The notes under the pieces were generated by a model. The model worked only from the letters and a program-made list of their open reading frames with translations, was not told the DNA's origin and did not search any database. From NCBI GenBank assembly GCA_019310745.1, contig JAFDDS010000002.1, positions 1 through 17,554 on the forward strand: a DNA stretch of 17,554 nt. The letters run 5' to 3'. Every line of letters starts with the position of its first letter. Position 1 is the stretch's first letter. The stretch is from Deltaproteobacteria bacterium. GTDB lineage: Bacteria; Desulfobacterota; DSM-4660; Desulfatiglandales; B25-G16. The position numbers were made by a program, and so were the translations under genes. Below, in pieces: positions 1,284 through 16,731 of the stretch.

Positions 1284-2054
1284 ATGCAGACCTATAAAAC
1301 TATTGAAGATTTCGGGAAGATCCTTGCTTTATTTAAAGGTTTCCAAGTTGAAGAAAGAGGGGTAACTGAGATTTCAAATGCACTTGAAATGACTGCAAGC
1401 AAAGTCTCAAGAATGCTTCGAACCTTGGAAAATGAAAGGTTTTTTGAAAGAAATTTGGATACTGGCAAGTATCGGCTTGGGTTTGCATTTTTCGAACTTG
1501 GAATGGCATATGCGTTTCATTTCCCATTGAGAAAAATAATACGGCCACATATCGAACATATAGCTAAGGGCCTAGGTTTGACGGCAAGTTGGGGAATTTT
1601 CCAGAACGATAATGTGATTGTTGTCGATAGGATCCAAAATCTTAATATAGACCTTATGTCATACCGGATTGGTCTGAACTTACCCATTCATAGCACATCC
1701 ATTGGAAAAATTTTATTGGCTTACTTTCCAGAAGAAAAGCAAGATAGGGTTATTAAATCTATTAAGTTAAACAAATTTACCGAAAAAACTATCGTAGATC
1801 CGATTTCAATAAAAGAAAAACTTAAGATATATAGGGAACTTGGATATGCAACAGATGAAGGTGAAACTCACGAAGAATTAAATTGTATCGCCGTACCTAT
1901 AAAAAATCAAAAAGGGGAGGTTATCGCAGCAGTTAATTTGATGGCAGAACAGTCACAAGCCAGCGCGGAAGAGCTGTTCAAGCATTCTGCTTATCTGAAG
2001 GAAAGAGCTATGTTCATATCACGTCAACTAGGGTACACATTATTCGAATCATAA
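1284..2054 (+). CDS. IclR-family transcriptional regulator
   Basis: This 256-residue protein has the full IclR length and plan. An N-terminal winged helix-turn-helix (about residues 8-64) includes an EISNALEMTASKVSRMLRTL recognition segment and ends in a GKYRLG wing. An effector-binding domain (about 80-250) contains the typical ELNCIAVPIKN and GEVIAAVNL strands. Family members bind a small catabolic effector, often an aromatic or hydroxy acid, and control a neighbouring operon. The start ATG is supported by AGGTGG five bases upstream. A strong promoter with palindromes precedes it. It is the first gene of module 1 and probably controls the transporter and dehydrogenase genes downstream. The effector cannot be read from sequence. 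Confidence 0.93.
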   Translation: MQTYKTIEDFGKILALFKGFQVEERGVTEISNALEMTASKVSRMLRTLENERFFERNLDTGKYRLGFAFFELGMAYAFHFPLRKIIRPHIEHIAKGLGLTASWGIFQNDNVIVVDRIQNLNIDLMSYRIGLNLPIHSTSIGKILLAYFPEEKQDRVIKSIKLNKFTEKTIVDPISIKEKLKIYRELGYATDEGETHEELNCIAVPIKNQKGEVIAAVNLMAEQSQASAEELFKHSAYLKERAMFISRQLGYTLFES

Positions 2055-2409: not shown

Positions 2410-3618
2410 ATGGGAAAAAAAGGTATATTGTGTCTTAGGAAGGTTTGCTTGGCGGCTTTAGCTTTTGTGGTCTGCGTCAGTGTCTTGACGGTCAAAGAAG
2501 AGATTGTATGGTGCGGGGAAGCTAAACAAGGGTTCTACAATATTGGAGTTATTGCGCCGATTTCTGGCCCAGGTGCTGCTCTAGGGAAATATTTTGCACA
2601 AGCAGTTGAGGTTGAAACGAAGTATATTAATAATAGTGGTGGAATAAACGGAATCCCCGTTAAACTTTTCATTGAAGACGACCAGAGCAACCCTACGGTA
2701 GCTCTAGTTGCTGTTAAAAAGCTCATCCAAAATGGGGCTGTGTGTATTCTGGGCTCGGTATTAACTAATAATGTACTGGCGATGATACCAGAGCTAGAAA
2801 AAGCTCAGGTTCCTAATATTGCCTCAGGTGCAGGTCGACAGATAATAGATCCTTTAAGAAAATGGATTTTCAAGGTCCCGCATACCGATACGAAAGTAAA
2901 TTTGGCAATGCTAGAATTTGCAAAAAGGAGTCTTGAGGCTAAGCAAATAGCGGTTCTATTTCAAGATGATGCTTATGGGATGAGCGGAGCGAAGCAGATG
3001 AGAACGCAGGCACCTCAGTTAGGGATTTCCATTGTTTCAGAACAAACTTTCCATGCTGGAGACTCGAACATGATTTCACAGCTGATGAAAATTTCCAAGA
3101 AAAGTCCTGACGCTGTTTTGGTTCATTCTTTCATTGGCCCGGGAGCTATTATTGCGAAGAATGCTTATCAGATTGGTCTAAAGACCCCAATTGTTTATTC
3201 TACTGGTGCTGTTAGTGAAACACTAATAAAGGTAGCTGGAAACAAGGTAGCAGAGGGACTATATTTCGCTGGAATTAAGCCGACAATTGGAAACCTCCTG
3301 CCTCAAAATGATCCACAAAAATTTTTCTATGATAGATTTCTAAAGAGATTGAAGAAGGAGAACATCCGATTCGATACTTTCCATGGAAACGGCCATGATG
3401 CAACTAATTTAATGGCATACGCACTAAAGAAGATTTCACCTAAAGTAAATGACACTCGAGCAATACGTGACGCAATTCAAAGAGCGCTTGAAACGGTAAA
3501 AAATTTGCCGCTACATAATGCAATGTATACTTTTACATCAAAAGACCATGACGGGGCGATGGCAGAATCCTTAGTTATGGTACAGGTAAGGGATGGCAAA
3601 TTCGTCCCAGCAAAGTAG
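2410..3618 (+). CDS. ABC transporter periplasmic binding protein, branched-chain amino acid (LivK) type
   Basis: This 402-residue protein starts with a basic stretch and a hydrophobic core (about residues 10-27) typical of a Sec signal peptide, with likely cleavage near residue 38. The mature part opens with NIGVIAPISGPGAALGKYF (44-62), the classic first strand and loop of type I binding proteins (Peripla_BP_6), followed by NNSGGINGIPVKL and a DDQSNPTVA segment. It would capture a small carboxylate or amino acid in the periplasm and pass it to LivH/LivM. Homologues bind amino acids, amides, aromatic acids or other carboxylates, so the ligand is open. AAAGGAG precedes the ATG. It has its own terminator and is separated from LivHMGF by three enzyme genes. 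Confidence 0.9.
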   Translation: MGKKGILCLRKVCLAALAFVVCVSVLTVKEEIVWCGEAKQGFYNIGVIAPISGPGAALGKYFAQAVEVETKYINNSGGINGIPVKLFIEDDQSNPTVALVAVKKLIQNGAVCILGSVLTNNVLAMIPELEKAQVPNIASGAGRQIIDPLRKWIFKVPHTDTKVNLAMLEFAKRSLEAKQIAVLFQDDAYGMSGAKQMRTQAPQLGISIVSEQTFHAGDSNMISQLMKISKKSPDAVLVHSFIGPGAIIAKNAYQIGLKTPIVYSTGAVSETLIKVAGNKVAEGLYFAGIKPTIGNLLPQNDPQKFFYDRFLKRLKKENIRFDTFHGNGHDATNLMAYALKKISPKVNDTRAIRDAIQRALETVKNLPLHNAMYTFTSKDHDGAMAESLVMVQVRDGKFVPAK

Positions 3619-3659: not shown

Positions 3660-3685
3660 AGGGGGATTATTACGTCCCCCTTTTT
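3660..3685 (+). terminator. Intrinsic terminator after the binding-protein gene
   Basis: AGGGGGA (3660-3666) and TCCCCCT (3675-3681) form a 7-bp GC-rich stem with an 8-base loop, followed immediately by T residues (3681-3685). It is a strong rho-independent terminator 42 bases past the stop codon. The LarA-like gene therefore probably has its own promoter. Confidence 0.88.
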
Positions 3686-3998
3686 CCCGCACCGTATTTG
3701 GCCCCGACATAAATGACTAGGTATCTTGCTGGGTGCTTATAAGGTTTTCAAATTAGACAAAAGCCTAATATTAACTGTGGTGGAATCCATACTTAAAAGA
3801 CCAATCAATTTGCTTAGGTAAGAGTTGTTGCAGTGTTATGAGGCTAAAAAGAATTTTAGATTTATGATAAATACAGAGTTGTCTCCAAATTGATGCGGGC
3901 AATTTTGCAGCAGTCAAAGAGCACGTTTTATTGCGGAGCACTCTTAAATATTTGCAAAAAAGTTTTTTATTTTCGGGTTAAAGAGCGGGAGGTTTGTC
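3686..3998 (+). other. Intergenic region upstream of the LarA-like gene
   Basis: About 310 bases without an ORF. A ribosome binding site (GGGAGG, about 3987-3992) precedes the next start. It follows a strong terminator, so a promoter is expected here, but I see no clear -35/-10 pair. Confidence 0.5.
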
Positions 3999-5438
3999 AT
4001 GTACAAAAGTGTGAAGGTAGATCGGTGGGAAGGGCAAATTGAAATTCAGGTGCCTGAGGCTTCAGTAATTTTTCAGTCGCAGGGTGCTGAAGAAAAGGCA
4101 TATGATCCAATAGCCAAGATACGACATGCTATTGAGAATCCACTTGGTATGAGGCCGATAAAAGAAATTATAAATAGCGGAAGCAGAGTGGCGATTGCCT
4201 TCGATAATCCATTAAAGCCGTGCCCAAGTTCCTTAACTATTCCCATTGTTTTAGAAGAAATAAGGGAAGTTGGTGTAAAAGAAGAAAACATTGTTTTGGT
4301 GAGTGCTAATGGATGTCAAAGGAAACATAGGGCTAGTGAGTTTTATGATTATCTAAATCGCGGTTATGGTCTATCACCAGGGAAAGGCCTCGTAACGGTG
4401 CCAAAAAAAATATTCAAGGAGTTTTGGCCCCATCGGTTTATTAGGAACGATTCTGCTAACCCAGAAAAGTTAGTGGATATGGGCCGTTCCAAATTAGGTG
4501 ATGTGGTTGAAGTCAATAGGGTTTTAGTAGATTATGATCTTCTTATATATACTGGAGCTGTTTATCCTATGGCCTGGGGAGGATATGGGGGGGTCGGGGT
4601 CGTAATCGGACTAAGTAGCGCAAGGAGCATAGCTTCTCATCATAACGTAGGAGTCATTGGACATAGGGACGCTTGTCATGCTGATCAGCGAAACCACTTC
4701 TATCGGAGACATAAGGATTCTATAATGGAGAGAATCGAAGAGTACACAGGGAGGAAGGTGTTTTATATTGACGCTATTCTTAATGGAGCTCGACAGTGGT
4801 CTCATTTTGCTGCGGGACATTTTAAGGAAATTCAGGAACCCTTATGGAAGGCTGCGGATGAAGAACGAATTTATCAAGTTGAGCAAGCAGATGTTGTGGT
4901 AATCGGTCTACCTAAATGGATACTATACGACACGACTCGAAACCCAGTCATATGCCTAAACGCTGCAGCCAATATCCTTAGGAACTCTTTAGGAAGGCCT
5001 GTTCTTCGAGAAGGTGGTGTATTAATATTAATAGCAGTTTGCGATGGATTTATTGATAATGATGCACTACCTTCGTATCCCGAAGTTCTAGATCTTTATG
5101 GTAAGATGGGTAACGCACAGAGGTTGGAAGAAAAATACTTAGAGGAATTCCTGTTTTATAGAGAGGATTATCTTATACAGCATATGGCGGGAAATGCTAA
5201 TCACCCAACACACCCTTTTTGGCTATTTGCAGAAACTCAGTTTGTGCATGACCATGTTGGTAAATTAATAATTGCTACTGCAGAGAATCCTGAGGCGGTG
5301 AGAAAGGTCGGGGGGACTTGGGCAGAGGACTTTGATCAAGCTTGGCAAATGGCTGAAAAATTAGTGGGAAAATCTCCGAAGACTCTTGTATTACCCAACT
5401 TTTTCACTAATGTTCCAGTTAAGTTCGCAGTGAAGTAG
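3999..5438 (+). CDS. LarA-like (DUF2088, nickel-dependent lactate racemase family) protein, non-canonical active site
   Basis: This 479-residue protein is soluble, with no signal peptide. It has the LarA layout: an N-terminal DUF2088 half with DNPLKPCPSS (69-78) where LarA has its D-x-T-R-P loop, NGCQRKHRASE (104-114) where LarA has G-x-H-R-P, and GAVYPMAWGGYGG (186-198) followed by SIASHHN (210-216). The last two match the family's P-H-x-x-AG(F/Y)SGGRK and T-I-x-x-N-H segments. A C-terminal half follows. LarA proteins racemise or epimerise 2-hydroxy acids with a nickel-pincer cofactor. Here the aligned positions for two histidines (Q107, M191) and for the cofactor lysine are not conserved, so activity may differ or the cofactor may be absent. 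No larB, larC or larE lies in the window. The ribosome binding site is GGGAGG. The dehydrogenases downstream suggest a hydroxy-acid pathway. Confidence 0.8.
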   Translation: MYKSVKVDRWEGQIEIQVPEASVIFQSQGAEEKAYDPIAKIRHAIENPLGMRPIKEIINSGSRVAIAFDNPLKPCPSSLTIPIVLEEIREVGVKEENIVLVSANGCQRKHRASEFYDYLNRGYGLSPGKGLVTVPKKIFKEFWPHRFIRNDSANPEKLVDMGRSKLGDVVEVNRVLVDYDLLIYTGAVYPMAWGGYGGVGVVIGLSSARSIASHHNVGVIGHRDACHADQRNHFYRRHKDSIMERIEEYTGRKVFYIDAILNGARQWSHFAAGHFKEIQEPLWKAADEERIYQVEQADVVVIGLPKWILYDTTRNPVICLNAAANILRNSLGRPVLREGGVLILIAVCDGFIDNDALPSYPEVLDLYGKMGNAQRLEEKYLEEFLFYREDYLIQHMAGNANHPTHPFWLFAETQFVHDHVGKLIIATAENPEAVRKVGGTWAEDFDQAWQMAEKLVGKSPKTLVLPNFFTNVPVKFAVK

Positions 5439-5573
5439 TCGTTTAATGTGTTTTTGCCGCGAGGGTCACTCCGAGAAGTGGACATCGAGTTAAGAAGCGA
5501 ATTTCATTTGCTGAAAATTGAAATATAGACAATCCATCTAAAGCCGAATGAATCCGCCTAACGTTACAGGACA

Positions 5574-5590
5574 TTTCAATGTATTTGAAA
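5574..5590. promoter_or_regulatory. Inverted repeat upstream of the SDR operon, possible operator
   Basis: TTTCAA (5574-5579) and TTGAAA (5585-5590) form a perfect inverted repeat around TGTAT, about 100 bases upstream of the SDR start. Its half-sites resemble those in the IclR promoter, but the spacing differs, so a shared regulator is only a possibility. Confidence 0.3.
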
Positions 5591-5688
5591 ATATTTGTTC
5601 GGGTTTCGCTATGGTTTACCTGAAAAGTTGCTGTTTAGTGTAATTGCAGTGTGATTGTTGAAATAAATATTATTTGTGGGATGAAGCC

Positions 5689-6450
5689 ATGAGGATGAAG
5701 GAAAAAATAGCCATAATTACTGGGGGATCTGACGGAATTGGGAAAGAAACCGCCTTATTATTCGGGCGTGAAGGGGCAACTGTCGTCATTGCTGACTATG
5801 ATGCCGAAAAAGGAAAAGAGGTCATAAACCAACTGAAAAAAGTCTACATTGAAAGCCTTTTTATCAAAACTGATGTGAGGGAGTCGATACAGGTACAAGA
5901 GATGGTGGAGCAAATAGTCAAGCAGTATGGGCGCATAGATGTACTAATAAACAATGCCGGTGTTGCTGGCGTGGTTCCAGTTACAGAGCTTTCTGAGGAA
6001 GATTGGGATCGAGTTGTTGATACGAATCTTAAGGGGGTATTTCTGTGTTGTAAGTATGCAATACCATATATGATTAAGAATGGTGGAGGAGTTATAGTTA
6101 ATATGGGTTCGGTACTTGGCTTTGTGGGGAGATTAAGGGCATCAGCATATAATGCATCTAAAGCAGGCGTTATTATGCTAACCAAAAATATGGCCTTGGA
6201 TTATGTAGATTTCAATATCAGAGTTAATGCTATCTGTCCTGGGTATGTTGAGACAGAGATCGTAAGAAGGTACATAAAAGGCTGTGAGGAGCCCGAAAAA
6301 ACGTATAGAGAATTAGTTAACCTTCATCCAATGGATCGTTTGGGGAGACCTGAAGAGATAGCCAATGGTATCTTATTCCTAGCTTCAAGCGAAAGTTCAT
6401 TTATGACAGGCTCCTGTCTAGTCATGGATGGAGGTTATTCTTGTCAATAA
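5689..6450 (+). CDS. Short-chain dehydrogenase/reductase (SDR), probably NAD-dependent
   Basis: A classical SDR of 253 residues. It shows TGGSDGIG (11-18, cofactor loop), Asp36 at the end of the second strand (favouring NAD over NADP), NNAG (88-91), the catalytic Ser141, Tyr154 and Lys158, and PGYVETE after strand six. It would interconvert a secondary alcohol or 3-hydroxyacyl group and the ketone in the cytoplasm. The start is chosen at ATG 5689, with GTGGGA seven bases upstream. A TTG at 5674 is possible but has no ribosome binding site, and ATG 5695 is too close to GAGG. It is followed 26 bases later by the zinc alcohol dehydrogenase and then LivHMGF, probably in one operon. The substrate is unknown. 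Confidence 0.92.
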   Translation: MRMKEKIAIITGGSDGIGKETALLFGREGATVVIADYDAEKGKEVINQLKKVYIESLFIKTDVRESIQVQEMVEQIVKQYGRIDVLINNAGVAGVVPVTELSEEDWDRVVDTNLKGVFLCCKYAIPYMIKNGGGVIVNMGSVLGFVGRLRASAYNASKAGVIMLTKNMALDYVDFNIRVNAICPGYVETEIVRRYIKGCEEPEKTYRELVNLHPMDRLGRPEEIANGILFLASSESSFMTGSCLVMDGGYSCQ

Positions 6451-6476
6451 ATCGCTAAGAGATAGAGGTGATGATA

Positions 6477-7520
6477 ATGAAGGCAGTTATATTTGAAAAA
6501 ATCGGATCAGTGAAACTTGCTGAAATTTCTAAACCTAAGCTTCTGAATCCCGATGATGCCTTAGTGAAAATAACAAGTACTGCAATTTGTGGTACCGATC
6601 TTCATATAATTAATGGAAATATCCCAGTTGAAGAAGACTTTGTGATAGGTCATGAAGCTGTAGGTATCGTTGAAGAGATCGGCAATGATGTTAAAAAGGT
6701 AAAGCCTAATGACAGAGTCGTAGTTTCTTGTACGGTTCAATGTGGCTTCTGTGTCAACTGTAGAAGAGGGGTAGCAGCCCTTTGCGAAAAAGGAGGAATT
6801 TTTGGCTGCGGGAAGGCGAGAGGTGGATTCGCAGGTGCGCAAGCTGAATATATGAGGGTCCCGTATGCTGATATGGTGTTAGAGCCAATTCCAGATAATA
6901 TAAGCGATGATGAAGCATTATTTGTCGGCGATATTCTTTCTACTGGCTACATGGCTGCTGAGAATGGATGCATCCGACCGGGTGATATTGTAGCTATTTT
7001 TGGATCAGGCCCAGTTGGCTTATGTACTTTAGCTTGTGCCAAACTTTTTGGAGCAAGCAAGATAATCAACGTAGATTTACTTGATTATCGGTTGGAAGAA
7101 GCTCAAAGGCTTGGAGCAGACATTGTTATTAACGCCAATAACACAGATCCAGTGGAGGAAATTAAAAATGCGACTAAAGGAAGGGGGGCTGATGTAACTA
7201 TTGAAGCTATAGGTGATCCAAAAACGTTACAAGCTTGCATAAACTCAGTCAGGGGAGGGGGAAATATTTCAATAGTTGGGGTTTTTCCTCCGGGCGTTGT
7301 AGAAATATCGATGAAGGAAATGCTTATTCAAAATCTTACAATAAAAATGGGCCTTGTAAACGTGATCAATATGGGTAAGTTATTAACCTTAATTATGAAT
7401 GGTAAACTTGATGTAACGTCGTTAATAACACATAGGTTGGATCTAGATGATGCAGAAGATGCCTATGCCATATTTTCCAAAAGGTCCCAGGGCGTGCTCA
7501 AGGTAATACTTAAACCTTAA
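6477..7520 (+). CDS. Zinc-dependent alcohol dehydrogenase (MDR family)
   Basis: This 347-residue protein has a GroES-like catalytic domain and a Rossmann domain. Catalytic zinc ligands are seen at Cys38 (ICGTDLH), His59 and Glu60 (GHE) and Asp152 (GDILSTGY). The structural zinc site has four cysteines (89, 92, 95, 103). GSGPVG (176-181) and Asp200 indicate NAD binding. Family members oxidise secondary alcohols, polyols or threonine-like substrates. The start at ATG 6477 has GAGGTG six bases upstream, and a GTG at 6468 overlaps that site so is less likely. It lies between the SDR and the transporter permease. Two dehydrogenases in a row suggest two oxidation steps, or the use of both enantiomers of one alcohol. 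The substrate cannot be named. Confidence 0.92.
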   Translation: MKAVIFEKIGSVKLAEISKPKLLNPDDALVKITSTAICGTDLHIINGNIPVEEDFVIGHEAVGIVEEIGNDVKKVKPNDRVVVSCTVQCGFCVNCRRGVAALCEKGGIFGCGKARGGFAGAQAEYMRVPYADMVLEPIPDNISDDEALFVGDILSTGYMAAENGCIRPGDIVAIFGSGPVGLCTLACAKLFGASKIINVDLLDYRLEEAQRLGADIVINANNTDPVEEIKNATKGRGADVTIEAIGDPKTLQACINSVRGGGNISIVGVFPPGVVEISMKEMLIQNLTIKMGLVNVINMGKLLTLIMNGKLDVTSLITHRLDLDDAEDAYAIFSKRSQGVLKVILKP

Positions 7521-7652
7521 AAGCAAGCAAAAATGGGATGGCGAAAACAAAAGGTATCTATAGAATTTGTGGGGAACCTCCGACTATTTAACTAACTGAT
7601 AATTGTGTAATATAAGATTTTGCTAATAATATTTTTATGAGACGTAAATGTT

Positions 7653-8531
7653 TTGGATATTACTGACCTAATACAGTTATTGATAACAGGGATTACAGAG
7701 GGCAGTGCGTATGCATTGATAGCTCTCGGTTTCTCCTTGATTTTTAGATGCACTAATGTGATTAGTTTTGCTCAAGGGGAATTCGTGGTACTTGGAAGTC
7801 TTATAATGGTTACTTTCCATGAGTTCCTAGGTGCTCCTGTAGTTTTATCTTTTGCAATAACTGTTGTCGTCGTAGGAAGCGTAGGAGCTTTATTTTACAA
7901 TTTTACTATTAGGCCTCTTATTGGAAGTTCTGCATCGATTCTGAATATGATAATTGTTACCATAGGGGTCTCGATGGTTTTAAAAACTATTGCAAAACTA
8001 TTTTGGGGAAGAGAGCCCATTGGTCTTTCATCCTTTGGCGGTGATGAGCCGATTAGATTTATGAGTGCGTTTTTACACCCTCAGTCACCTTGGATATTGG
8101 CAGTTTCGTTATTAATTTTGGCTGGGATAATAGGCTTCTTAGATTATACGCGTGAAGGGAAGGCTCTTAAAGCGTGTGCGGAAGATTCGTTTGCCGCTAA
8201 GTTGATGGGAATTAGCACGCAGCGAATTGTATTTTATTCCGTTATTTTGAGCGCAATGGTTGGTGCTGTTAGTGGAATTATTATAGCACCGGTTACATAT
8301 GCCAGATATGATCTTGGTATAATATATACTATCAAGGGTTTTAGTGCAGCTGTACTGGGAGGCATCAAAAACCCAGTTGGTTCAATGGTGGGAGGAATAA
8401 TTCTGGGGCTTTTGGAAACCTTCGGCGTTTTTTTCATGTCTTCGGGGTATAAGGATGTTATCTCGCTTGGCGTACTATTGGTTGTGCTATTTTTTAAGCC
8501 AGAAGGTATTTTTTCATCCCATGCAGAGTGA
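7653..8531 (+). CDS. livH: Branched-chain amino acid-type ABC transporter permease LivH
   Basis: This 292-residue membrane protein begins at a TTG codon. No ATG in frame gives the family's usual N-terminus, and the start sits directly before QLLITGITEGSAYALIALG, the standard LivH opening. ISFAQGEF (37-44) matches the family's SFAHG signature. GKALKACAEDSFAAKLMGIS (169-188) is the cytoplasmic EAA-like loop that contacts the ATPase. About eight hydrophobic segments are visible. With LivM it forms the channel through the inner membrane. The ribosome binding site is weak. It lies 132 bases after the alcohol dehydrogenase and overlaps the start of LivM. The transported ligand is probably set by the binding protein at 2410. 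Confidence 0.9.
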   Translation: MDITDLIQLLITGITEGSAYALIALGFSLIFRCTNVISFAQGEFVVLGSLIMVTFHEFLGAPVVLSFAITVVVVGSVGALFYNFTIRPLIGSSASILNMIIVTIGVSMVLKTIAKLFWGREPIGLSSFGGDEPIRFMSAFLHPQSPWILAVSLLILAGIIGFLDYTREGKALKACAEDSFAAKLMGISTQRIVFYSVILSAMVGAVSGIIIAPVTYARYDLGIIYTIKGFSAAVLGGIKNPVGSMVGGIILGLLETFGVFFMSSGYKDVISLGVLLVVLFFKPEGIFSSHAE

Positions 8532-9531
8532 GAAAGCATTAAAAATGAGAGAAATATTTTGGGCGTTGCTAAAATCAGTATTGGGAATTTCTTTCCTTTT
8601 GCTAATACCCCTAGCCATTGGAAGACCGTTTATCTACACCATATTAATATTATCAGGAATTAATGCTCTTGTAGCTCTTGGATTGCTTTTGTTAGTAGGA
8701 TACGCTGGCCAAATATCATTTGGGCATGCTGGTTTTATGGCTATAGGGGCGTATACATCAGCAATAATTGCGACCAGGTACGATCTTACCGTGATGATGG
8801 GAATGATTTGCGGTCTCATATTTACGTCGTTGATTGCCATACTGATTGCTATTCCTATTCTTAAATTGAAAGGGTATTACTTGGCAATGGCAACGCTTGC
8901 TTTTGGGGTAGTTTTATCGAAATTGCTGATTGAATTGGAATGGCTTACTGGCGGGCCAGTTGGGATTGGAGCAATACCACCTCTAGAATTTTTTAGTTTT
9001 ACAGTTGAAGGTGACGAGGCGTACTTAATAATTGTATGGTGTATCGTTTTTGTTGTCTACTTTTTTTGTAAAAATATCCTAAACTCCCATATTGGGAGAA
9101 TCCTTAAAGGCATAGATCTTGATGAACAAGTTGTTGGGTGCCATGGTGTAGACGTCAGGAAGGTAAAATCAAACATTTTTGTCTTTAGTGCAATTTTAGC
9201 CTCTTTAGCAGGAAGTCTGTATGCACATTATATGAAATACATTAGTCCAGAAGTATTTTCTGCAGATCTTTCGGTTTTCTTAATTATGATGGTGTTTTTG
9301 GGTGGCACTAGTCATGTTTGGGGGGCAATACTTGGAGCTCTATTGCTAAATATTTTGCCGGAGATACTGCGGTCATACAAAGATATTAGCATGGGTTTAT
9401 ACGGCCTTGCACTCGTGCTTATTGTTATTCTGATGCCAAAGGGATTAAGTGTGATTTTAGTTGGTATGTACAAAAAGCTACTATATTTGGCCAAACAAGT
9501 TTGGACAAAAAAAATATGCAGAGGCCAATAG
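8521..9531 (+). CDS. livM: Branched-chain amino acid-type ABC transporter permease LivM
   Basis: The second permease has 336 residues from ATG 8521, which overlaps the LivH stop by 11 bases and suggests translational coupling. ATG 8545 gives the more usual family N-terminus and is a real alternative. The sequence has the LivM hallmark VGYAGQISFGHAGFMAIGAY shortly after the first helices, LKGYYLAMATLAFGVV in the middle, and a cytoplasmic loop GIDLDEQVVGCHGVDVRKV for ATPase contact. A MVFLGGTSHVWGAILGALLL segment near the end is typical of the family. It pairs with LivH in the membrane. Confidence 0.9.
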   Translation: MQSEKALKMREIFWALLKSVLGISFLLLIPLAIGRPFIYTILILSGINALVALGLLLLVGYAGQISFGHAGFMAIGAYTSAIIATRYDLTVMMGMICGLIFTSLIAILIAIPILKLKGYYLAMATLAFGVVLSKLLIELEWLTGGPVGIGAIPPLEFFSFTVEGDEAYLIIVWCIVFVVYFFCKNILNSHIGRILKGIDLDEQVVGCHGVDVRKVKSNIFVFSAILASLAGSLYAHYMKYISPEVFSADLSVFLIMMVFLGGTSHVWGAILGALLLNILPEILRSYKDISMGLYGLALVLIVILMPKGLSVILVGMYKKLLYLAKQVWTKKICRGQ

Positions 9532-9539
9532 TATTCGTG

Positions 9540-10328
9540 ATGACTGAGATGTATAATAAAAACAGTGAGTCTTGTTTCTTTGAAGTGGAAAATTTGTGTA
9601 AAGACTTTGGTGGCCTTCGAGCGGTGAATAATGTCAGTTTCGAAGTGAAAAAAAATGAAATATTTTCCATTATTGGGCCTAACGGAGCGGGAAAAACAAC
9701 TTTATTCAATCTTATTTCCGGCTTTTTCCAGATTAGAAAGGGAAGTATTTCCTTTAGAGGTAAACGGCTGAATAATTTGAGCCCATTCTTGATTGCGAGG
9801 CTGGGAGTTGCTCGAACTTTTCAAAACATCCGGTTATTTCCTGATATGAACGTAATTGAAAACGTATTAATAGGAAGTGAAGCTAAGGCAGTTCAAGGTT
9901 TTTTGGCAACAGGATTTCGTGTTCCGGGAGTGCAAAAACTGGAGAAAGAGAAAGTCGAAAACGCGGAGGAATGGCTAAACTATTTAGGCTTGCTTGATTA
10001 TAAATATAAAAGATCTGGATCTCTTCCGTATGGGCTACAAAAGAAGCTGGAGATAGCCCGCGCTTTGGCGAATGATCCGGCGCTAATCCTTCTAGATGAA
10101 CCAGGAGCTGGTTTAAATGATGTTGAAATTGGAGAAATTCAAGAAATTATATGGAGAATTCGAGATGAATTAGGTTTGACTATATTGGTTATCGATCATA
10201 ATACAAATTTAATAATGTCTTTATCAGACAGTATCATGGTATTGAATTTTGGTGAAATATTGACAATAGGAAGTCCTGAAGATGTTAGAAATGATTCAAG
10301 GGTAATTGCTGCATACTTAGGGCATTGA
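9540..10328 (+). CDS. livG: Branched-chain amino acid-type ABC transporter ATPase LivG
   Basis: This 262-residue ATPase has Walker A GPNGAGKTT (46-54), a Q-loop at Gln95 (RTFQNIRLF), Walker B ILLDEP (183-188) and the switch His220. The signature is LPYGLQKKLEIARAL rather than LSGGQ, which is normal for LivG and separates it from LivF. The start is uncertain. ATG 9540 gives the family length; ATG 9549 is possible; TTG 9501 and ATG 9516 would overlap LivM and lack ribosome binding sites. It powers transport by ATP hydrolysis at the inner face of the membrane. Confidence 0.92.
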   Translation: MTEMYNKNSESCFFEVENLCKDFGGLRAVNNVSFEVKKNEIFSIIGPNGAGKTTLFNLISGFFQIRKGSISFRGKRLNNLSPFLIARLGVARTFQNIRLFPDMNVIENVLIGSEAKAVQGFLATGFRVPGVQKLEKEKVENAEEWLNYLGLLDYKYKRSGSLPYGLQKKLEIARALANDPALILLDEPGAGLNDVEIGEIQEIIWRIRDELGLTILVIDHNTNLIMSLSDSIMVLNFGEILTIGSPEDVRNDSRVIAAYLGH

Positions 10329-10451
10329 ATTTTTTGTCGGTTGTGGAGAAAAGCGATGGGTTTTTGGGCTTTAAAGTTGCCCGTTGCTTTGTAAGTAGTT
10401 TTACTTAATATTGAAAGTATATCAACAAAAGTCATTTCCTAGGTTGGAACT

Positions 10452-11219
10452 ATGAAGTCTAATCGGCCCCTGACTCTCGAAATAAGTAAAGCTTACGTGG
10501 CAATAAATTCTTCTGTGATTCTACATGATATATCATTGAAGATCGGTGGAGCAGAATTTGTTACTATAATAGGGTCGAATGGGGCCGGAAAAAGTACTTT
10601 GCTTAGGACTATTTCAGGGTTTTACAAGTTAAAGAGTGGGAATATTTCTTTTTATGGGAAAGATATTTCTAAGTTAGAGCCTGAAAATATAGTTAAAATG
10701 GGCCTTTCACACGTCCCCGAAAGAAGACATGTTTTTGCCGCGCTTTCAGTACGGGATAATTTGGAGTTAGGCAGTTACCTATATCAAAAGGTTAGATCAC
10801 AAGCCTATCAACACAACATTAGATTTGTTTATAACTTATTCCCAGTCCTTGAGGAACGAAAAAGGCAGTCAGCTGGCACTTTAAGTGGAGGAGAACAACA
10901 AATGTTGGCCGTAGGCCGGGCATTGATGGCTGAGCCTAAGCTACTAATGTTAGATGAGCCATCGCTTGGTCTAGCTCCTATTGCAGTTGAAGCAGTGTTC
11001 CGTGTTTTAGCTGATCTGAATAGGGAGAGATTGCCAATTCTTCTTATAGAACAAAATGCCAAAATTTCGCTTGATGTCGCAGAAACTGGATACATTTTAG
11101 AAAGAGGAAGAGTAAGGCTTCAAGGAAAGACAAGAGATCTTCTTGGTAACAGAATGGTTGTAGATTCTTACTTAGGTAAACAGGTGGTTAATCCGAAAGG
11201 GTCAAAAGGAGCATTATAA
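10452..11219 (+). CDS. livF: Branched-chain amino acid-type ABC transporter ATPase LivF
   Basis: This 255-residue ATPase has Walker A GSNGAGKST (41-49), signature LSGGEQQ (144-150), Walker B LLMLDEPSLGLAP (164-177), and IEQN (199-202) in place of the switch histidine. The EQN form and the VPERRHVFAALSVRDNLELG segment are characteristic of LivF. It pairs with LivG to complete a LivKHMGF system. A 123-base gap separates it from LivG, longer than the other gaps in the set, with no terminator or clear promoter. The ribosome binding site is weak. It is the last intact gene of the AT-rich module. Confidence 0.93.
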   Translation: MKSNRPLTLEISKAYVAINSSVILHDISLKIGGAEFVTIIGSNGAGKSTLLRTISGFYKLKSGNISFYGKDISKLEPENIVKMGLSHVPERRHVFAALSVRDNLELGSYLYQKVRSQAYQHNIRFVYNLFPVLEERKRQSAGTLSGGEQQMLAVGRALMAEPKLLMLDEPSLGLAPIAVEAVFRVLADLNRERLPILLIEQNAKISLDVAETGYILERGRVRLQGKTRDLLGNRMVVDSYLGKQVVNPKGSKGAL

Positions 11220-11244
11220 AAGGCGGTAGTTTAAAATATTAGTA

Positions 11245-11394
11245 ATGTTCATAAGTGTCGCTGCCCTTATTAATATAACTGCCGAAAAGAAACACGTTAG
11301 CGCAGAGGATTTAATTAAGCACGCAGGTTACCTTAAAAAAGAAAAAAGTTTGTTCATTTCCCGGCATTTCCGTTACAGATATGTGAGAGGCTAA
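11245..11394 (+). pseudogene. IclR-family regulator, C-terminal relic
   Basis: A 49-codon frame ending at TAA 11392-11394 encodes only the last part of an IclR effector domain: VAALINITAE (from about 11257), then VSAEDLIKHAGYLKK and LFISRHF. It aligns with the C-terminus of the intact IclR at 1284, which has ASAEELFKHSAYLKE and MFISRQL at the same place. There is no DNA-binding domain and no usable start, so the gene is 5'-truncated. The two copies differ at many positions, so it is not a recent duplicate of the first gene. It sits exactly between the AT-rich and GC-richer modules. Confidence 0.8.
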
Positions 11395-11478
11395 TATTTA
11401 GGTAAAAGGAACGTTACATTCATTTTCGGTTAGGTGAAAATAAATATCCTATTCTAAAATTTTTAAACGCTGGAGGCA

Positions 11479-13017
11479 ATGGAATTTATGCAAAAAAATA
11501 AGGAATACGATGCAATTTGGTTTGGCGGAGGGGCTGCTGGCAGGTTTGGGGCGGCCTATATGAAAGGATTAGGCGGCATGCCTTTGATTGTTGAGAAGGA
11601 GGGACTCGGAGGAGAGTGCCATACATGTAGGTGTGCTTTTGAGAACTATGTATCGGATCAAGCATCTATGGCTGAGTTGCTGCAAGCCTATTCAGGATTG
11701 TCCTGGTATCCCGAGTTTAAGCTAAAAAAGAATAGTATGGCCAAAGTCGTTGAGGTTTATAGGAATGTGGGACAACCGTCGTTTCACGACGCCATGACCC
11801 ACCAATCTGTAACCCAATTGGGCCTTGATGTCGCCTGGGGAGAAGGGGAGATTATCGATAAGAATATTGTGAAGGTGAATGGTAAGGTTTACAAGGGAAA
11901 AAACCTTGTCATGGGCACTGGTTCAAGGCCGACGATGCCTGATATACCTGGAACCGATTTGGAAAATGTGTGGACCTATAGGGACCATCCGGAAATTAGA
12001 AAAGATCCCAAGAAGCTTGTAATTATCGGCGGCGGGAAGATCGGAATGGGCAAGGGGGCCATGTTTGCCCCTTTCGACATCGATGTCACTATTTTAGAAA
12101 AATATAGCGTTTTGACTAAATGGGATTGGGAAATTAAGAACTGGGTTTTTGAAGATTTCAGGCGAAGAGGTATCAAAGTATATGAAGGTGTTGAGGTCAA
12201 GGAAATCAAAGGGGACGGGAAAGTGGAGGCTGTAGTGGCCGAGATTAAAGGCAAAATCACTGAATTTTCTTGCGACGCCGTGATGTTGTCTGTCGGTCTT
12301 ACCCCGAATTCCGAGCCCGCTATGCCTTTGGGTGTAAAGATAGGAGCGAATAACGAAATTGTTATCGACAAAGGCTCCAGGACAAATATCCCCGGTATCT
12401 ATGCAGTAGGAGATGTTGCCGGGCCACCTTATTTCATGGCCGCTGCAAGAAAGCGCGGCATTATCGCAGCCAAAAACATCATGGGGGGGAGCGCACAATG
12501 GGATGACAGTCTGCCCTTGCCCGACCACATTTATTTACCGCCGTTGGAGGCGACAACGGTTGGGCTCACTGAGAAAGAGGCACGAGAAAAATACGGTGAC
12601 GTTGTGATCATTAGAGTTCCTTGGGGTGCGAGGGCTAAGCATGCCCAACCCCTAAGGTATATCCCTCATCTTGAAAATCAGGGCCTGCCGGTTTGCGGCA
12701 GGGTTCACTCGCTCAATCTGTTCTTTTATGGACAGAATAGAAACGGATTACACAAGGCTATAGTGGATCCCAAATCAAGAAAATATGTTGGGTTCCATCA
12801 TGTTGGTGACGGGGCAAAGACCGCTTTTCAGTATTTGTCCTATTTACTTCAGCAAGGCTGGACAGTGGACCAGATGGCAAATCTACACGAGATTTTCCTC
12901 AATGCTGAGCACTTTATCCAGTTGTCTAGACTAGTTGCGGGGCAGGATGATTTAAAAGGCTACTCGGGACAGACAGTGACCGAGGATTACACGAAGGATC
13001 TCCTTCAAAAGGCATGA
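11479..13017 (+). CDS. 2-oxopropyl-CoM reductase/carboxylase (2-KPCC)-like flavoprotein disulfide oxidoreductase
   Basis: The 512 residues follow the glutathione reductase-type fold: FAD site GGGAAG (16-21), redox pair Cys47-x4-Cys52 (with an extra Cys50), NADPH-type site IGGGKIG (183-189), second FAD motif YAVGDV (308-313) and a C-terminal interface domain. The interface domain has FLNAEHFIQLSRL (473-485). Phe473 and His478 replace the usual His...Glu base pair at the same five-residue spacing as Phe501/His506 of Xanthobacter 2-KPCC. EYDAIWFGGGAAGRFGAAY also matches that enzyme. Arg22, Met320 and Arg324 align with its CoM-site Arg56, Met361 and Arg365. 2-KPCC cleaves 2-ketopropyl-CoM and carboxylates the product to acetoacetate. 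The alignment is from memory. GGAGG lies 2 bases before ATG 11479 and 11 before ATG 11488, so the start is ambiguous. A sulfonate-type transporter follows. Confidence 0.85.
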   Translation: MEFMQKNKEYDAIWFGGGAAGRFGAAYMKGLGGMPLIVEKEGLGGECHTCRCAFENYVSDQASMAELLQAYSGLSWYPEFKLKKNSMAKVVEVYRNVGQPSFHDAMTHQSVTQLGLDVAWGEGEIIDKNIVKVNGKVYKGKNLVMGTGSRPTMPDIPGTDLENVWTYRDHPEIRKDPKKLVIIGGGKIGMGKGAMFAPFDIDVTILEKYSVLTKWDWEIKNWVFEDFRRRGIKVYEGVEVKEIKGDGKVEAVVAEIKGKITEFSCDAVMLSVGLTPNSEPAMPLGVKIGANNEIVIDKGSRTNIPGIYAVGDVAGPPYFMAAARKRGIIAAKNIMGGSAQWDDSLPLPDHIYLPPLEATTVGLTEKEAREKYGDVVIIRVPWGARAKHAQPLRYIPHLENQGLPVCGRVHSLNLFFYGQNRNGLHKAIVDPKSRKYVGFHHVGDGAKTAFQYLSYLLQQGWTVDQMANLHEIFLNAEHFIQLSRLVAGQDDLKGYSGQTVTEDYTKDLLQKA

Positions 13018-13202
13018 TCAATGGGTAAAAGACGGGATCCAAATATGTAAACGGGACTGGAATAATTGTTTTTAAGGATGAAGGGGGACAGAGGATGGGC
13101 CGTGACTGGGTTAGGGCATTGCTAAAAATGGCGCTTTATTCAAGAATGCTGCATGGAATTATAAATTATCATCTGGGAGTCTTAGTCCCAAGGAGACTTA
13201 TA

Positions 13203-14168
13203 ATGACTAAGGGATTTATTCTCATTGTTATGTGTGCCTTTATTATTATCGGAATTGCAGGCTATGCTGAGGGGTCTGGAAAGCCTATCAGGATTGCCTA
13301 TCTGCAGAGTGACATTCACCATTTAGCCTGCTGGATATCACTGGAAAAGGGCTTTTTCAAGGACGCTGGCTTGGATGTTGAAGTGGCGGGGATCTTCAAA
13401 GCAGGCCCTGAGATGATGAGTGCTTTTGGTGCTGGCGCCTTGGATATGGGTTATGTAGGGCAAGCGCCGGCAACCACAGCCGTGGCGAACGGGGCCGTCG
13501 CGGTCACTGTTTTGGCACAGGTCAATACAGAAGGATCGGCCATTGTTGTGAGGAGGAATTCACCAGCAAAGTGCCTCCTTTCTCTTGTCGAAAAGATTGT
13601 AGCGATCCCTGGACATTCGACTGTCCAGGACTTCCTCCTGCAACACGGTCTGGCAAAAAGCAGCGTGAATGCAAACAAGGTAAAAACGATCGTCCTAAAA
13701 CCTCCTGAAATGATTGGGGCCCTACGCACAGGCCAAATTGATGCGTTCATTGCCTGGGAACCCTATCCCGCCCTGGCCCAGAGCATGGCTGTTGGACGGG
13801 TGCTCATTTCCTCCAGTGAAATCTGGGAAGCGCACCCATGCTGCGTTCTCGTAGCAGATAATCGGTTTCTTTCTAATCATCCTGACGAAGCCGCAGCCAT
13901 GGTTCGATGCCATATCAAGGCAACAGATTTTATTAACGAGCATCCTGGAAAAGCGGCTGAAATTGCAATGAAATACACAGGAATGGATCAGAGAACCGTC
14001 AGAATAGCGATGAAAAACGTTCACTATGATTATGAAATCAACATAGAAGGCGAAAAGACCTATGTGGATTTCCTTTCTAAGCTAGGATATATAAGACTGG
14101 ATGACAGTAACCAGTTCATCAAGAGATTCATCAATGGTGACTTTCTTCGAAATTCTATCAAACGATGA
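13203..14168 (+). CDS. ABC transporter periplasmic binding protein, sulfonate/taurine/nitrate (SsuA/NMT1) type
   Basis: This 321-residue protein has a signal peptide (hydrophobic residues 4-20, likely cleavage after Ala22) and a type II binding-protein body: PIRIAYLQSD (28-37), LEKGFFKDAGLDVEV (47-61), the ligand-loop signature GAGALDMGYVGQAPA (76-90), and a later AWEPYPALA segment. Relatives bind aliphatic sulfonates, taurine, nitrate or thiamine precursors. The start is ATG 13203, with AGGAG seven bases before it and the signal peptide directly after. An in-frame ATG at 13095 would add 36 residues ahead of the signal and is rejected. It follows the 2-KPCC-like gene by 185 bases and starts a complete transporter set. 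Confidence 0.88.
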   Translation: MTKGFILIVMCAFIIIGIAGYAEGSGKPIRIAYLQSDIHHLACWISLEKGFFKDAGLDVEVAGIFKAGPEMMSAFGAGALDMGYVGQAPATTAVANGAVAVTVLAQVNTEGSAIVVRRNSPAKCLLSLVEKIVAIPGHSTVQDFLLQHGLAKSSVNANKVKTIVLKPPEMIGALRTGQIDAFIAWEPYPALAQSMAVGRVLISSSEIWEAHPCCVLVADNRFLSNHPDEAAAMVRCHIKATDFINEHPGKAAEIAMKYTGMDQRTVRIAMKNVHYDYEINIEGEKTYVDFLSKLGYIRLDDSNQFIKRFINGDFLRNSIKR

Positions 14169-14256
14169 GGCATGTCTGCCTCGCCCACGAATCGGATGTT
14201 TTGTTTGAGATTTTAATGGGTAGCAAAGCCGCTTTACGAGCGAAGTATGTTTTGAG

Positions 14257-15033
14257 ATGTTTTCATGGTTTACAAGACGTCGTTTTGATCAGTGGATTCT
14301 GCCTTCATTGGTTCTTGTTATGTGGCAGATCCTCAGCTATCTGGAAATTATTCCAAACTTCTTACTCCCATCACCTCTCAGGATACTATTGGGTTTCAAG
14401 GACCTTGTAATCATTGGTATGCCGCCAGGGCATCTACTTCACGTCCATGCCCTCTACAGCCTGTATCGTGTTGCATGGGGCTTCGCCGTGGCGGTCTTAC
14501 TGGCAATACCATTGGGGCTCTTGATGGGATGGTCCGGTAGGCTTCGATACCTGATCAGCCCGCTTTTTGAGTTGGTTAGACCTATTCCACCCCTTGCATG
14601 GATCCCAATTGCCATATTATGGTTTGGTATTGGCCTTAAGTCCGCTGTCTTTATCATCTTTTTGGGGGCATTTTTCCCGATTCTGATCAACACCGTTTCT
14701 GGAGTTACCTCCATCCATCCAAGATATGTCGAGGTAATCCGAACGTTGAATGCGAATGGAAAGGATATTTTTCTCAAGGTGTTGCTCCCTGGCTCCATTC
14801 CGTCCATCTTTGTTGGGATGAGAATCGGGGTGGGGATTGGATGGATGAGCCTGGTGGCTGCCGAATTTACGGGCGTCAGGGAGGGGTACGGGCTTGGCTA
14901 TATGATCATGACTGCGCGGGATATTCAAAGGCCGGATGAGATCCTGGCGGGCATGTTGGTCATCGGAATAATCGGTCTTTTCATCAACAGTGGGTTCAAG
15001 ATCTGCGAATCGAAAATAATCCGGTGGAAATAG
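14257..15033 (+). CDS. ABC transporter permease, SsuC/TauC type
   Basis: This 258-residue inner-membrane protein has about six hydrophobic segments. RPIPPLAWIPIAILWFGIG (108-126) is the typical SsuC/TauC stretch. The EAA loop with VIRTLNANGKDIFLKVLLPG (160-179) contacts the ATPase. It forms the channel for the substrate delivered by the binding protein upstream. The ribosome binding site is weak (TTTGAG right before the ATG), and the 88-base gap from the binding protein holds no other gene, so an earlier non-ATG start cannot be excluded. Its stop lies 10 bases before the next start. Confidence 0.9.
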   Translation: MFSWFTRRRFDQWILPSLVLVMWQILSYLEIIPNFLLPSPLRILLGFKDLVIIGMPPGHLLHVHALYSLYRVAWGFAVAVLLAIPLGLLMGWSGRLRYLISPLFELVRPIPPLAWIPIAILWFGIGLKSAVFIIFLGAFFPILINTVSGVTSIHPRYVEVIRTLNANGKDIFLKVLLPGSIPSIFVGMRIGVGIGWMSLVAAEFTGVREGYGLGYMIMTARDIQRPDEILAGMLVIGIIGLFINSGFKICESKIIRWK

Positions 15034-15043
15034 GGGGCTTTTT

Positions 15044-15838
15044 GTGTGTCTTGAACTAAAAGGGATCTGCAAAACTTTTGGGGACTCGGATTCACAGGAG
15101 ATTGTCCCTGTTCTGGAAGATATCGATTATAGCATTGGCAGTGGGCGTTTTGTTTCCATAGTCGGCCCCAGTGGATGCGGTAAGAGCACGTTAATCAGAA
15201 TTATCGCGGGACTGGAAAGAGTAACCAAAGGGGAGGTTCTTCTCGGGGGCAGCAAGATTAAATACGGGAAGGATTTGATTGGCCTTGTTTTTCAGGAGTA
15301 CGCCCTGTTTCCATGGCGGACGGCGCTTCAGAATATCCAGATAGGCCTGGAAATTATGGGTATTTGTAAAAAGGACAGTGAATCCGCTGCCACAGAATAC
15401 ATGAAGGCCCTTGGTTTGAGCGGATTCGAGAATCAATATCCCAGAGAGTTGTCCGGCGGTATGCAACAACGCGTTGCTATAGCACGAACCTTGATCACAA
15501 ATCCCCAAGTCGTTTTGATGGACGAACCCTTTGGCTCCTTAGATAGCCAGACCAGGAACGATTTGCAGGAGTTTCTTCTCAGTCTTTGGAGGAAAAGGAA
15601 CAAAACGATTATATTTGTAACGCACAATGTGGACGAGGCTGTTTTTTTGAGTGACGAGATTATCTTGTTATCTGAAAGACCCGCACAGATTACCAGGATA
15701 TTCGAGCTCGATTTCCCGAGGCCACGAGATCGGACAGGTCGGGAATGTAATCTGATGAGAAAGGATGTATTAGAGGCGTTAAAAGAACAAAGAATCGAGT
15801 CAACCCCTTTTTTAGTTGAAATTCATGAAGTGGCTTAA
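15044..15838 (+). CDS. ABC transporter ATPase, SsuB/TauB type
   Basis: This 264-residue ATPase starts at GTG, with AGGGGG six bases upstream overlapping the stop of the permease gene. It has Walker A GPSGCGKST (41-49), Q-loop VFQEYALFPW (82-91), which is typical of sulfonate/nitrate importers, signature LSGGMQQR (136-143), Walker B VVLMDEP (156-162) and switch His194 in THNVDEA. It completes a three-gene importer. No terminator is seen after it. No desulfonating enzyme (SsuD or TauD type) is encoded nearby, so the job may not be plain sulfur scavenging. Confidence 0.92.
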   Translation: MCLELKGICKTFGDSDSQEIVPVLEDIDYSIGSGRFVSIVGPSGCGKSTLIRIIAGLERVTKGEVLLGGSKIKYGKDLIGLVFQEYALFPWRTALQNIQIGLEIMGICKKDSESAATEYMKALGLSGFENQYPRELSGGMQQRVAIARTLITNPQVVLMDEPFGSLDSQTRNDLQEFLLSLWRKRNKTIIFVTHNVDEAVFLSDEIILLSERPAQITRIFELDFPRPRDRTGRECNLMRKDVLEALKEQRIESTPFLVEIHEVA

Positions 15839-16335: not shown

Positions 16336-16650
16336 CTATCGCCGGGCCTCTTCCTTGAACATTTTGATGTTTGTCTCGACAAGCTGTTCGATGATTTTTC
16401 GTACCCGCGCATAATTGGCGATCATCTTTCGAATTCTGGGTAACTGACCTCGAGACACGTACACGATTCGCGTCTTCTGCTGGTTATCCTTATACGTCAG
16501 GCGGTATGCCCTCCGAGATGACGTCTTATTGCATATGCAGCGGGCTCTGTTGCATGTGGTGCAGATGCTACTGATCGAACCTCGGACAAATTCCGAGTGC
16601 TGGCCAAGTTTCTTCAGCAGCGCGTTTCGTTTTCGGGCCAACCCTTTCAT
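16336..16650 (-). CDS. DUF6788-like small protein associated with transposases
   Basis: A 104-residue basic protein. It has FVRGSISS (21-28), then a probable zinc knuckle with Cys30, Cys33, Cys38 and Cys40, then YRLTYKDNQQKTRIVYVSRG (49-68) and a C-terminal helix ending ETNIKMFKE. This matches the small proteins annotated DUF6788, often found beside IS transposases; their function is unknown. The start is ATG 16650, because GAGGTG lies six bases upstream on the minus strand. A longer start at 16710 would run through the promoter. It is divergent from the transposase and probably belongs to the same element. Confidence 0.75.
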   Translation of the reverse strand: MKGLARKRNALLKKLGQHSEFVRGSISSICTTCNRARCICNKTSSRRAYRLTYKDNQQKTRIVYVSRGQLPRIRKMIANYARVRKIIEQLVETNIKMFKEEARR

Positions 16651-16680
16651 TGACAACACCTCTTCGATAATGGTAGACGT

Positions 16681-16710
16681 ATAATATACATCTACTGCAT
16701 GGCAAGTCAA
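16681..16710 (-). promoter_or_regulatory. Promoter of the DUF6788-like gene
   Basis: On the minus strand TTGACT (16710-16705) and TATTAT (16686-16681) are separated by 18 bases, about 30 bases before the chosen start. This places the promoter between the two divergent genes of the element. A TATAAT (16680-16685) on the plus strand could serve the transposase but lacks a -35 partner. Confidence 0.5.
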
Positions 16711-16731
16711 TGATTAATGAGGAGGTGCGAC

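Follow-up and report, generated by a model that had tools for sequence, protein, structure and literature searches.

The protein encoded on the forward strand at 11479..13017 of the window (the whole stretch analysed here, 17,554 nucleotides of a Deltaproteobacteria bacterium contig) is a flavin disulfide oxidoreductase resembling 2-ketopropyl-CoM carboxylase (2-KPCC), yet one that lies outside 2-KPCC proper. Judged by its sequence, it belongs to a clade of Phe-His flavin disulfide oxidoreductases, so far drawn from metagenome-assembled genomes (MAGs) of anaerobic lineages, which is sister to the branch bearing 2-KPCC. Since a sulfonate-type importer is encoded beside the gene and genes of sulfite respiration accompany it in some relatives, the findings point to a function in the breakdown of sulfur-containing organic compounds that would be new and possibly ancestral. 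The initial annotation regarded the host as an anaerobe; the names of the relatives' MAGs (Dehalococcoidia, Deltaproteobacteria and Clostridia) agree with this, although the relatives are the sole basis for it.

The assignment begins with the closest known structures. The 512-residue product has the 2-KPCC structure 1mo9 as its top PDB sequence match (276 bits over residues 8-492), followed by two 2-KPCC variants, and the first match of another kind is a mercuric reductase at 140.8 bits. An AlphaFold2 model built from a 37-row alignment has a pLDDT of 90.3, and a Foldseek search with it puts four 2-KPCC chains on top, with TM-scores of 0.84-0.88 by query length, and lipoamide dehydrogenase next at 0.77. 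The 2-KPCC-like identity first proposed from the letters alone is therefore borne out by 1mo9 leading in sequence and 2-KPCC chains leading in predicted fold. In an alignment of 115 rows, R56, C82, H84, C87 and H137 of XecC, the Xanthobacter 2-KPCC, correspond to R22, C47, T49, C52 and H103 of the window protein, and M361, R365, F501 and H506 correspond to M320, R324, F473 and H478. The residues annotated as a Phe-His catalytic pair, Phe473 and His478, do fall on the catalytic positions. Likewise, the Arg/Met/Arg positions claimed as kept align onto R56/M361/R365, the CoM-sulfonate site of XecC.

These residues are sustained across the whole family. The relatives used were the best 120 of 183 2-KPCC-like proteins. 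Proteins shorter than 400 residues were dropped before the first alignment (126 rows kept) and those shorter than 460 before tree building (115 rows left); X letters were also stripped from the rows ahead of tree building. The 64 rows counted for what we call clade A exclude the window row, include its database copy (P0001) and an outlier (P0079), and count P0015 and an identical locus translation separately. Among the matches listed, the F501 equivalent is Phe in 31/31 Xec, 8/8 clade B, 4/4 DHC and 64/64 clade A rows, and the H506 equivalent is His in 31/31, 8/8, 4/4 and 63/64. In all eight outgroup disulfide oxidoreductases, the first position is Tyr or His and the second is Glu or Asp. Conservation of the pair across the Xec, A, B and DHC rows is beyond chance, and none of the 76 rows counted for clades A, B and DHC among the matches listed has a His-Glu relay. 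R56, M361 and R365 are kept in all Xec (31/31), B (8/8) and DHC (4/4) rows and in 63, 62 and 64 of the 64 clade A rows, respectively, again among the matches listed; each is kept in none of the eight outgroups. Membership among mercuric reductases (MerA) or dihydrolipoyl dehydrogenases (LPD) is ruled out by the Phe-His pair, by the tree, by scores below cut-off (205 bits against 408.8 for TIGR01350 and 192 against 454.45 for TIGR02053) and by 2-KPCC being the best match. The extra Cys pointed out between the redox cysteines, C50, is real, but it is optional: its equivalent in clade A is Cys in 40 of 63 rows among the matches listed, Asn in 22 and Ser in one, which rules it out as an essential residue. 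One relative of 452 residues (P0113, E 3.8e-90), removed by the length filter before tree building, has the R22 and R324 equivalents and lacks the Phe-His pair; it is possibly an intermediate or an outgroup form.

Trees were made by a quick method from the 115 rows and by a careful one from 46 chosen rows. In both, the Phe-His proteins form one clade apart from the MerA/LPD-type outgroups with support of 100/100, so the window protein is not placed among the latter. In the 46-row tree, it falls in clade A (100/99, or 97/87 with P0079 included) and outside the XecC clade. The sister group of clade A (94/84) is made up of clade B, which holds one member from a Clostridia MAG, P0090, the Dehalococcoidia clade (DHC) and the Xec clade. 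The Xec clade (100/100) includes XecC of Xanthobacter along with Nocardioides and Mycolicibacterium proteins, and it groups with DHC at 98/97. The 115-row tree leaves P0079 unplaced and gives the sister group an SH-aLRT of 89. The branch to the outgroups is long, which makes the position of the root less certain than the inner groups of the family. XecC-type 2-KPCC branches within a larger Phe-His family.

While the predicted anion-holding and proton-excluding parts of the active site are common to the family, the keto side and the coenzyme side differ. H84 and H137 of XecC are the histidine pair reportedly stabilising enolacetone via water, as Kofoed et al. are said to have found in 2011. Among the matches listed, both are His in 31/31 Xec rows and in 0/12 rows of B and DHC, where Lys plus Tyr or Phe stands instead (12/12). 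In clade A, H84 is replaced, most commonly by Val (33), Ile (9), Gln (7) or Lys (6) of the 64 rows listed, and the H137 equivalent is His in 28/64. The window protein, with T49 and H103, keeps one of the two. On the coenzyme side, the usual rule is that Glu at the end of the second strand of the NAD domain goes with NADH and Arg with NADPH. Among the matches listed, Glu is present in 59/63 clade A and 4/4 DHC rows, and Arg stands one position further on in 31/31 Xec rows; clade B is Xec-like, with Arg in 7/8. The window protein has E207-K208 for V244-R245 of XecC and so is missing the NADPH-type Arg (R245). This pattern points to NADH as the coenzyme of A and DHC, and to NADPH as that of Xec and perhaps of B; NADH does not hold for the whole family because the coenzyme position of clade B is XecC-like. 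Fold, CX4C motif, Phe-His pair and the positions of R56/M361/R365 are what the window protein has in common with XecC, but identity is just 33-34%, the clade is different, and, since the enolacetone-side and coenzyme residues differ, carboxylation of 2-ketopropyl-CoM is not to be presumed.

The gene lies in a cluster of 13 forward-strand genes, running from 1284 to 15838 with intergenic gaps of at most 380 bp. It begins with an IclR-family regulator (1284..2054; PF01614), a Liv-type periplasmic binding protein (2410..3618; PF13458) and a LarA-like protein (3999..5438; PF09861). Next come a classical SDR dehydrogenase (5674..6450), recognised by profile match and by comparison with the SDRs beside XecC, and a zinc-type medium-chain dehydrogenase (6468..7520; profile match). 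Liv-type transport genes follow, each scoring below the family cut-off: a LivH-like permease (7653..8531; NF008011, 118 bits of 379), a LivM-like permease whose start is uncertain (8455..9531; NF008450, 140 of 366), and LivG-like (9501..10328; NF008449, 281 of 362) and LivF-like ATPases (10452..11219; NF008626, 232 of 441). Directly after the 2-KPCC-like gene is a second importer, consisting of a substrate-binding protein of the SsuA (aliphatic sulfonate) type (13095..14168; PF13379), which exceeds the cut-off of TIGR01728 (173.6 bits against 163.5), an SsuC/TauC-type permease (14257..15033; PF00528; best NF040733, 179.5 bits, below the cut-off of 295) and an SsuB/TauB-type ATPase (15044..15838; best NF040729, 237 bits of 360; TauB model, 222.6 of 357). 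A SaoX-type importer was set aside at 101 bits against the NF040735 cut-off of 300. The importer is thus like SsuABC and TauABC in its components, but its partners here are the LarA-like and 2-KPCC-like enzymes, and no desulfonating monooxygenase was recognised in the cluster.

Context also bears on whether the protein might be 2-KPCC in all but surroundings, cleaving and carboxylating 2-ketopropyl-CoM or a close CoM thioether scavenged through the Ssu-type importer. All 13 cluster genes were scanned, and none was recognised as an epoxide-CoM gene. The SDR is generic, and its identity of 36-37% to the SDR pair next to XecC in Xanthobacter rules it out as a 2-hydroxypropyl-CoM dehydrogenase; with no EaCoMT-like gene recognised either, epoxide or alkene metabolism is ruled out as the context. 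Scavenging would fit the kept Arg/Met/Arg site, Phe-His pair and cysteine pair, and it is consistent with ComA being found in none of eight draft genomes, these being fragmented drafts in which absence is a weak signal. Even so, with H84 and often H137 gone, a different coenzyme site, neither an epoxide-CoM transferase nor an HPC-dehydrogenase-like SDR recognised among the cluster genes, and the link to dsr genes described below left without explanation, we consider this reading unlikely. XecC itself has a 2-hydroxypropyl-CoM lyase and two SDRs as neighbours, and this is partly so at the actinobacterial plasmid matches. Insofar as the incomplete gene tables of those plasmids go, the neighbours of Xec-clade matches differ from the LarA-like/Ssu set.

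The LarA-like protein of the window has its best structure matches in two single-histidine LarA-like proteins, 9q2u (178.6 bits) and 9q3j (136.6 bits). It has the nickel-ligand His in common with them, but it differs in lacking the lysine that binds the NPN cofactor, in a two-residue deletion beside that position and in having Gln for the catalytic His. The relatives used were the best 120 of 173 LarA-like proteins. Among the 121 rows so listed, the lysine column holds another residue, mostly Thr, in 120 (window included), and the adjacent deletion is present in 120; the sole exception at the lysine is a second LarA of a Deltaproteobacteria MAG locus (L001), added as an outgroup. The nickel-ligand His is kept in 121/121 rows, and the catalytic His is kept in 104 and replaced by Gln in 17, the window among them. 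Identity between the window protein and the LarA-like proteins of the other loci is just 39-43%. LarC exceeds its cut-off in six of eight draft genomes, two of these being partial matches, and a search of plasmids with the LarA-like protein found no relative. According to PMC7583248, LarA groups without these residues are known and may do other chemistry. We withhold the label of racemase from the protein. The second LarA of L001 lies upstream of the 2-KPCC-like gene (within 504-8874), has Lys at the NPN position and reaches 428 bits with the LarAH14/15/16 model, against a cut-off of 740. The same segment also encodes a protein like 3-hydroxyacyl-CoA dehydrogenase, a KCE-like enzyme of beta-keto-acid cleavage and, by reading, a sigma-54-type regulator; these genes possibly serve the downstream use of a beta-keto acid.

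The same partners recur beside the gene in relatives. In L001, the 2-KPCC-like, LarA-like and SsuA-like genes are consecutive, the last ending at the contig edge (98.1 bits). In the Dehalococcoidia genome G002, one contig carries the LarA-like gene and then the N-terminal part of the 2-KPCC-like gene, and another carries the C-terminal part followed by SsuA, SsuC and SsuB; the two contigs have no exact end overlap. Four genomes with DHC-clade proteins (G311, G368, G839 and G840, at loci L040, L038, L057 and L055) have the LarA-like gene adjoining the 2-KPCC-like gene and divergent from SsuA, with SsuC and SsuB wherever the contig extends that far. In G393, the end of LarA directly precedes the 2-KPCC-like gene (L039), and a separate contig (L075) holds the start of LarA with SsuA/C/B. 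In G843 (L056), the LarA-like end precedes the 2-KPCC-like gene where the contig begins. Next after the 2-KPCC-like gene comes an SDR in G368, G393, G839 and G840, but not in G311 or G843. Counting only loci whose contig reaches the side in question, the LarA-like gene is adjacent, or 6 kb off in the window, in 9/9 (window, L001, L037, L038, L039, L040, L055, L056 and L057); for an SsuA-like gene the figure is 8/8 (window, L001, L002, L038, L040, L055, L057 and L075). Against the TIGR01728 cut-off, L040 scores above at 166.7 bits, full-length L038 and L075 just below at 156.3 and 152.1, and the L001 protein is a fragment. The initial annotation had seen none of the other epoxide-CoM genes nearby. 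This stands, none being recognised among the 13, but the gene is not without partners, as LarA-like and SsuA/C/B genes recur beside it.

Co-occurrence extends the association. In the taxonomic order of G393, 7 of 84 genomes (G002, G311, G368, G393, G839, G840 and G843) carry the 2-KPCC-like gene at E values up to 1e-50, G002 being near the limit at 9e-53, and exactly those seven carry the LarA-like gene at E values up to 1e-80 (hypergeometric 2e-10, kinship ignored). In the class of G001, each gene is found in 1/42, in the same genome. A survey for the 2-KPCC-like gene found G001 alone in that class (42) plus a draw of 395 from the phylum, and four genomes in a draw of 393 from the class of G002; a scan of a viral collection found no relative. 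Neighbourhoods from outside the one Dehalococcoidia order are few, namely the window and L001. For the other relatives, we compared the longest contigs of the listed 2-KPCC-like and LarA-like proteins for equal size. Among the matches listed, 10 pairs were observed, where shifted sizes gave 0.75 on average and 3 at most. The 10 divide into 6/82 for clade A, one being the L001 contig, 4/8 for clade B and 0/29 for the Xec-like rows P0092-P0120, which include P0095 of the DHC clade and P0113. In one pair, P0089 and P0174, both members bear the name 'Clostridia bacterium'. The comparison is indirect evidence that the two genes share contigs in clade B and in more of clade A.

The ends of the window cluster have features of another kind. 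Structure matches to group II introns (Rfam RF00029 and RF02012) lie upstream of it at 4-155 (forward strand) and 770-911 (reverse strand). About 500 bp past SsuB are DUF6788 and transposase ORFs, two overlapping frames at the right end (16336-17552), with PF14706 in the first part of the transposase. Together they suggest a mobile island, and one could ask whether the neighbourhood is functionally unlinked cargo. That the same partners occur in members of two phyla and to either side of the family's deepest split, in the same 7 of 84 genomes and with equal-size contig matches for clade B, makes this very improbable. A terminator scan of the window gave no excess over shuffles (11 against 12.1), and a promoter scan gave a weak one (44 against 34.9 +/- 5.7).

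The partner set, namely LarA-like protein, SsuA/C/B-type importer and in part SDR and dsr genes, points to organosulfonates, not epoxides. A new substrate or pathway, as the annotation had suggested, is also the better reading. The dsr genes appear past the importer. Four loci extend at least 1 kb beyond SsuB (window, L040, L055 and L057), and in three of them, all but the window, dsrM exceeds its cut-off (G311, G839 and G840), with dsrK doing so in two (G311 and G839); no dsr gene is present on the window contig. In G311, the genes after SsuA/C/B encode a protein with an RsbRD_N domain, then DsrM (451 bits, cut-off 300) and DsrK (720, cut-off 400), a DsrO-like protein that the end of the locus truncated in the scan (173 of 200) and, by reading, a DsrP-like protein. 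G840 has a 3-hydroxyacyl-CoA dehydrogenase-like protein and an MFS protein between SsuB and the RsbRD_N gene, then DsrM (457) and a fragment resembling DsrK where the contig ends. G839 repeats the series with RsbRD_N, DsrM (473), DsrK (722), DsrO (293 of 200) and, by reading, a DsrP-like protein; dsrA (572, cut-off 393) begins roughly 10 kb past SsuB and is followed by dsrB (520, cut-off 341.5), and the end of dsrC (110, cut-off 53.5) lies roughly 14 kb past SsuB. Across the order, dsrA is found in 7/84 genomes, four of which have the module (G368, G393, G839 and G840; p 6e-4, kinship ignored) and three of which do not (G125, G403 and G435). It had no match in the module carriers G001, G002, G311 and G843, and aprA exceeded its cut-off in 0/11 genomes, with two weak matches; these are fragmented drafts, so both absences count for little.

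The proximity of dsrMK and dsrC, all within about 20 kb in G839, together with the fold, could also suit an unusual disulfide or persulfide reductase in a sulfur relay, for example one linked to DsrC or to a low-molecular thiol disulfide, in which the 2-KPCC-like pocket is merely retained. We regard this as quite improbable, since the 76 rows counted for A, B and DHC among the matches listed are without the His-Glu relay and the constant neighbours are the importer and the LarA-like gene, not dsr. What we propose instead is that the enzyme uses NADH and a dithiol to cleave reductively the C-S bond of an imported keto compound bearing a sulfonate, a reaction that would in at least some cases feed sulfite respiration. 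2-KPCC works by dithiol chemistry, and it is this precedent with the conserved residues that leads to the chemistry, as the importer with the Arg/Met/Arg site leads to the class of substrate. An organosulfur substrate would probably enter through the adjoining SsuA/C/B-type system, after which the LarA-like protein and the dehydrogenases would prepare it. NADH would reduce FAD, and FAD the C47-C52 disulfide. With the sulfonate or a similar anion held by R22/M320/R324, the C47 thiolate would cleave the C-S bond adjacent to the ketone, and the Phe-His pocket would shield the released enolate from protons. In at least some Dehalococcoidia, the module would supply sulfite to DsrAB respiration. Fold, residues, tree placement, gene associations and co-occurrence are what the analysis shows; we infer the substrate, the direction, NADH as cofactor and the fate of the enolate, whether protonated or carboxylated. 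A caveat is that SsuA/NMT1-type binding proteins carry other ligands too, and two full-length relatives fall just below the SsuA cut-off. Overall, we hold with about even confidence that the protein belongs to a separate Phe-His clade performing 2-KPCC-type dithiol C-S cleavage of an imported organosulfur substrate, with sulfite passing to DsrAB in some Dehalococcoidia.

As to the sulfur product, it is from the dsr link in Dehalococcoidia alone, not from the window, that we infer sulfite. That a beta-ketosulfonate, for instance sulfopyruvate, releases sulfite is a rather doubtful specification, and release of a sulfonated thiol of the coenzyme M type is doubtful to the same degree. The former corresponds to a sub-case of the preferred reading to which we give similarly limited credence: a sulfolactate-type route in which the LarA-like isomerase and a dehydrogenase would make 3-sulfopyruvate, and the 2-KPCC-like enzyme would expel sulfite as its cysteine thioether forms and then let go of pyruvate, or of oxaloacetate after CO2 capture. 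We know of no precedent for displacement of sulfite from a beta-ketosulfonate by a thiolate, which counts against the route, as do the NPN lysine missing in 120/121 of the LarA-like rows listed and the need to reuse a CoM-like anion site. In its favour are the adjoining SsuA/C/B, dsrMK, dsrAB and dsrC downstream in relatives, aprA over cut-off in none of the 11 draft genomes, and a GlcD-like oxidase close to dsrC in G839. Known LarA-family members also use 2-hydroxy acids, according to PMC11770544.

Anaerobic respiration of organosulfonates uses IslA, SuyAB and Xsc routes. The proposed module is like these in coupling sulfonate uptake to Dsr, but no glycyl-radical enzyme, sulfo-lyase or Xsc was recognised among the neighbour genes read or scanned. 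To our knowledge, 2-KPCC has been treated as a one-off among disulfide oxidoreductases. In the trees it forms a single twig within a larger family, whose recurrent partners hint at a role before CO2 fixation. Tentative, and less likely than not, is the larger idea of a new anaerobic route of organosulfonate respiration (import, LarA-like and dehydrogenase conversion to a 2-oxoalkyl compound, C-S cleavage and sulfite to Dsr) that would be ancestral to the CO2-fixing 2-KPCC of aerobic alkene users. Among the papers listed, as judged by title and opening of the abstract and with subscription journals mostly outside the coverage, none concerned anaerobic 2-KPCC homologues or the LarA-like/Ssu/2-KPCC-like gene set. 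Hadal Chloroflexi are described in PMC9088039 as having sulfonate transporters and alkanesulfonate monooxygenase genes, a monooxygenase route that differs from the proposed module. PMC4959651 leaves the sulfite source of one dsr-bearing member of the Dehalococcoidia as a question, to which the module would be a testable answer.

Two further gene groups accompany the module in Dehalococcoidia. After dsrC in G839 (L074, 11502-17732) are iron-sulfur proteins (by reading), the GlcD-like FAD oxidase and an LdhH/TfrB-like protein, possibly forming a 2-hydroxy acid oxidation complex. In G311 (L040, 1-8760), genes read as porphyrin/siroheme-type and heme-type biosynthesis adjoin the module.
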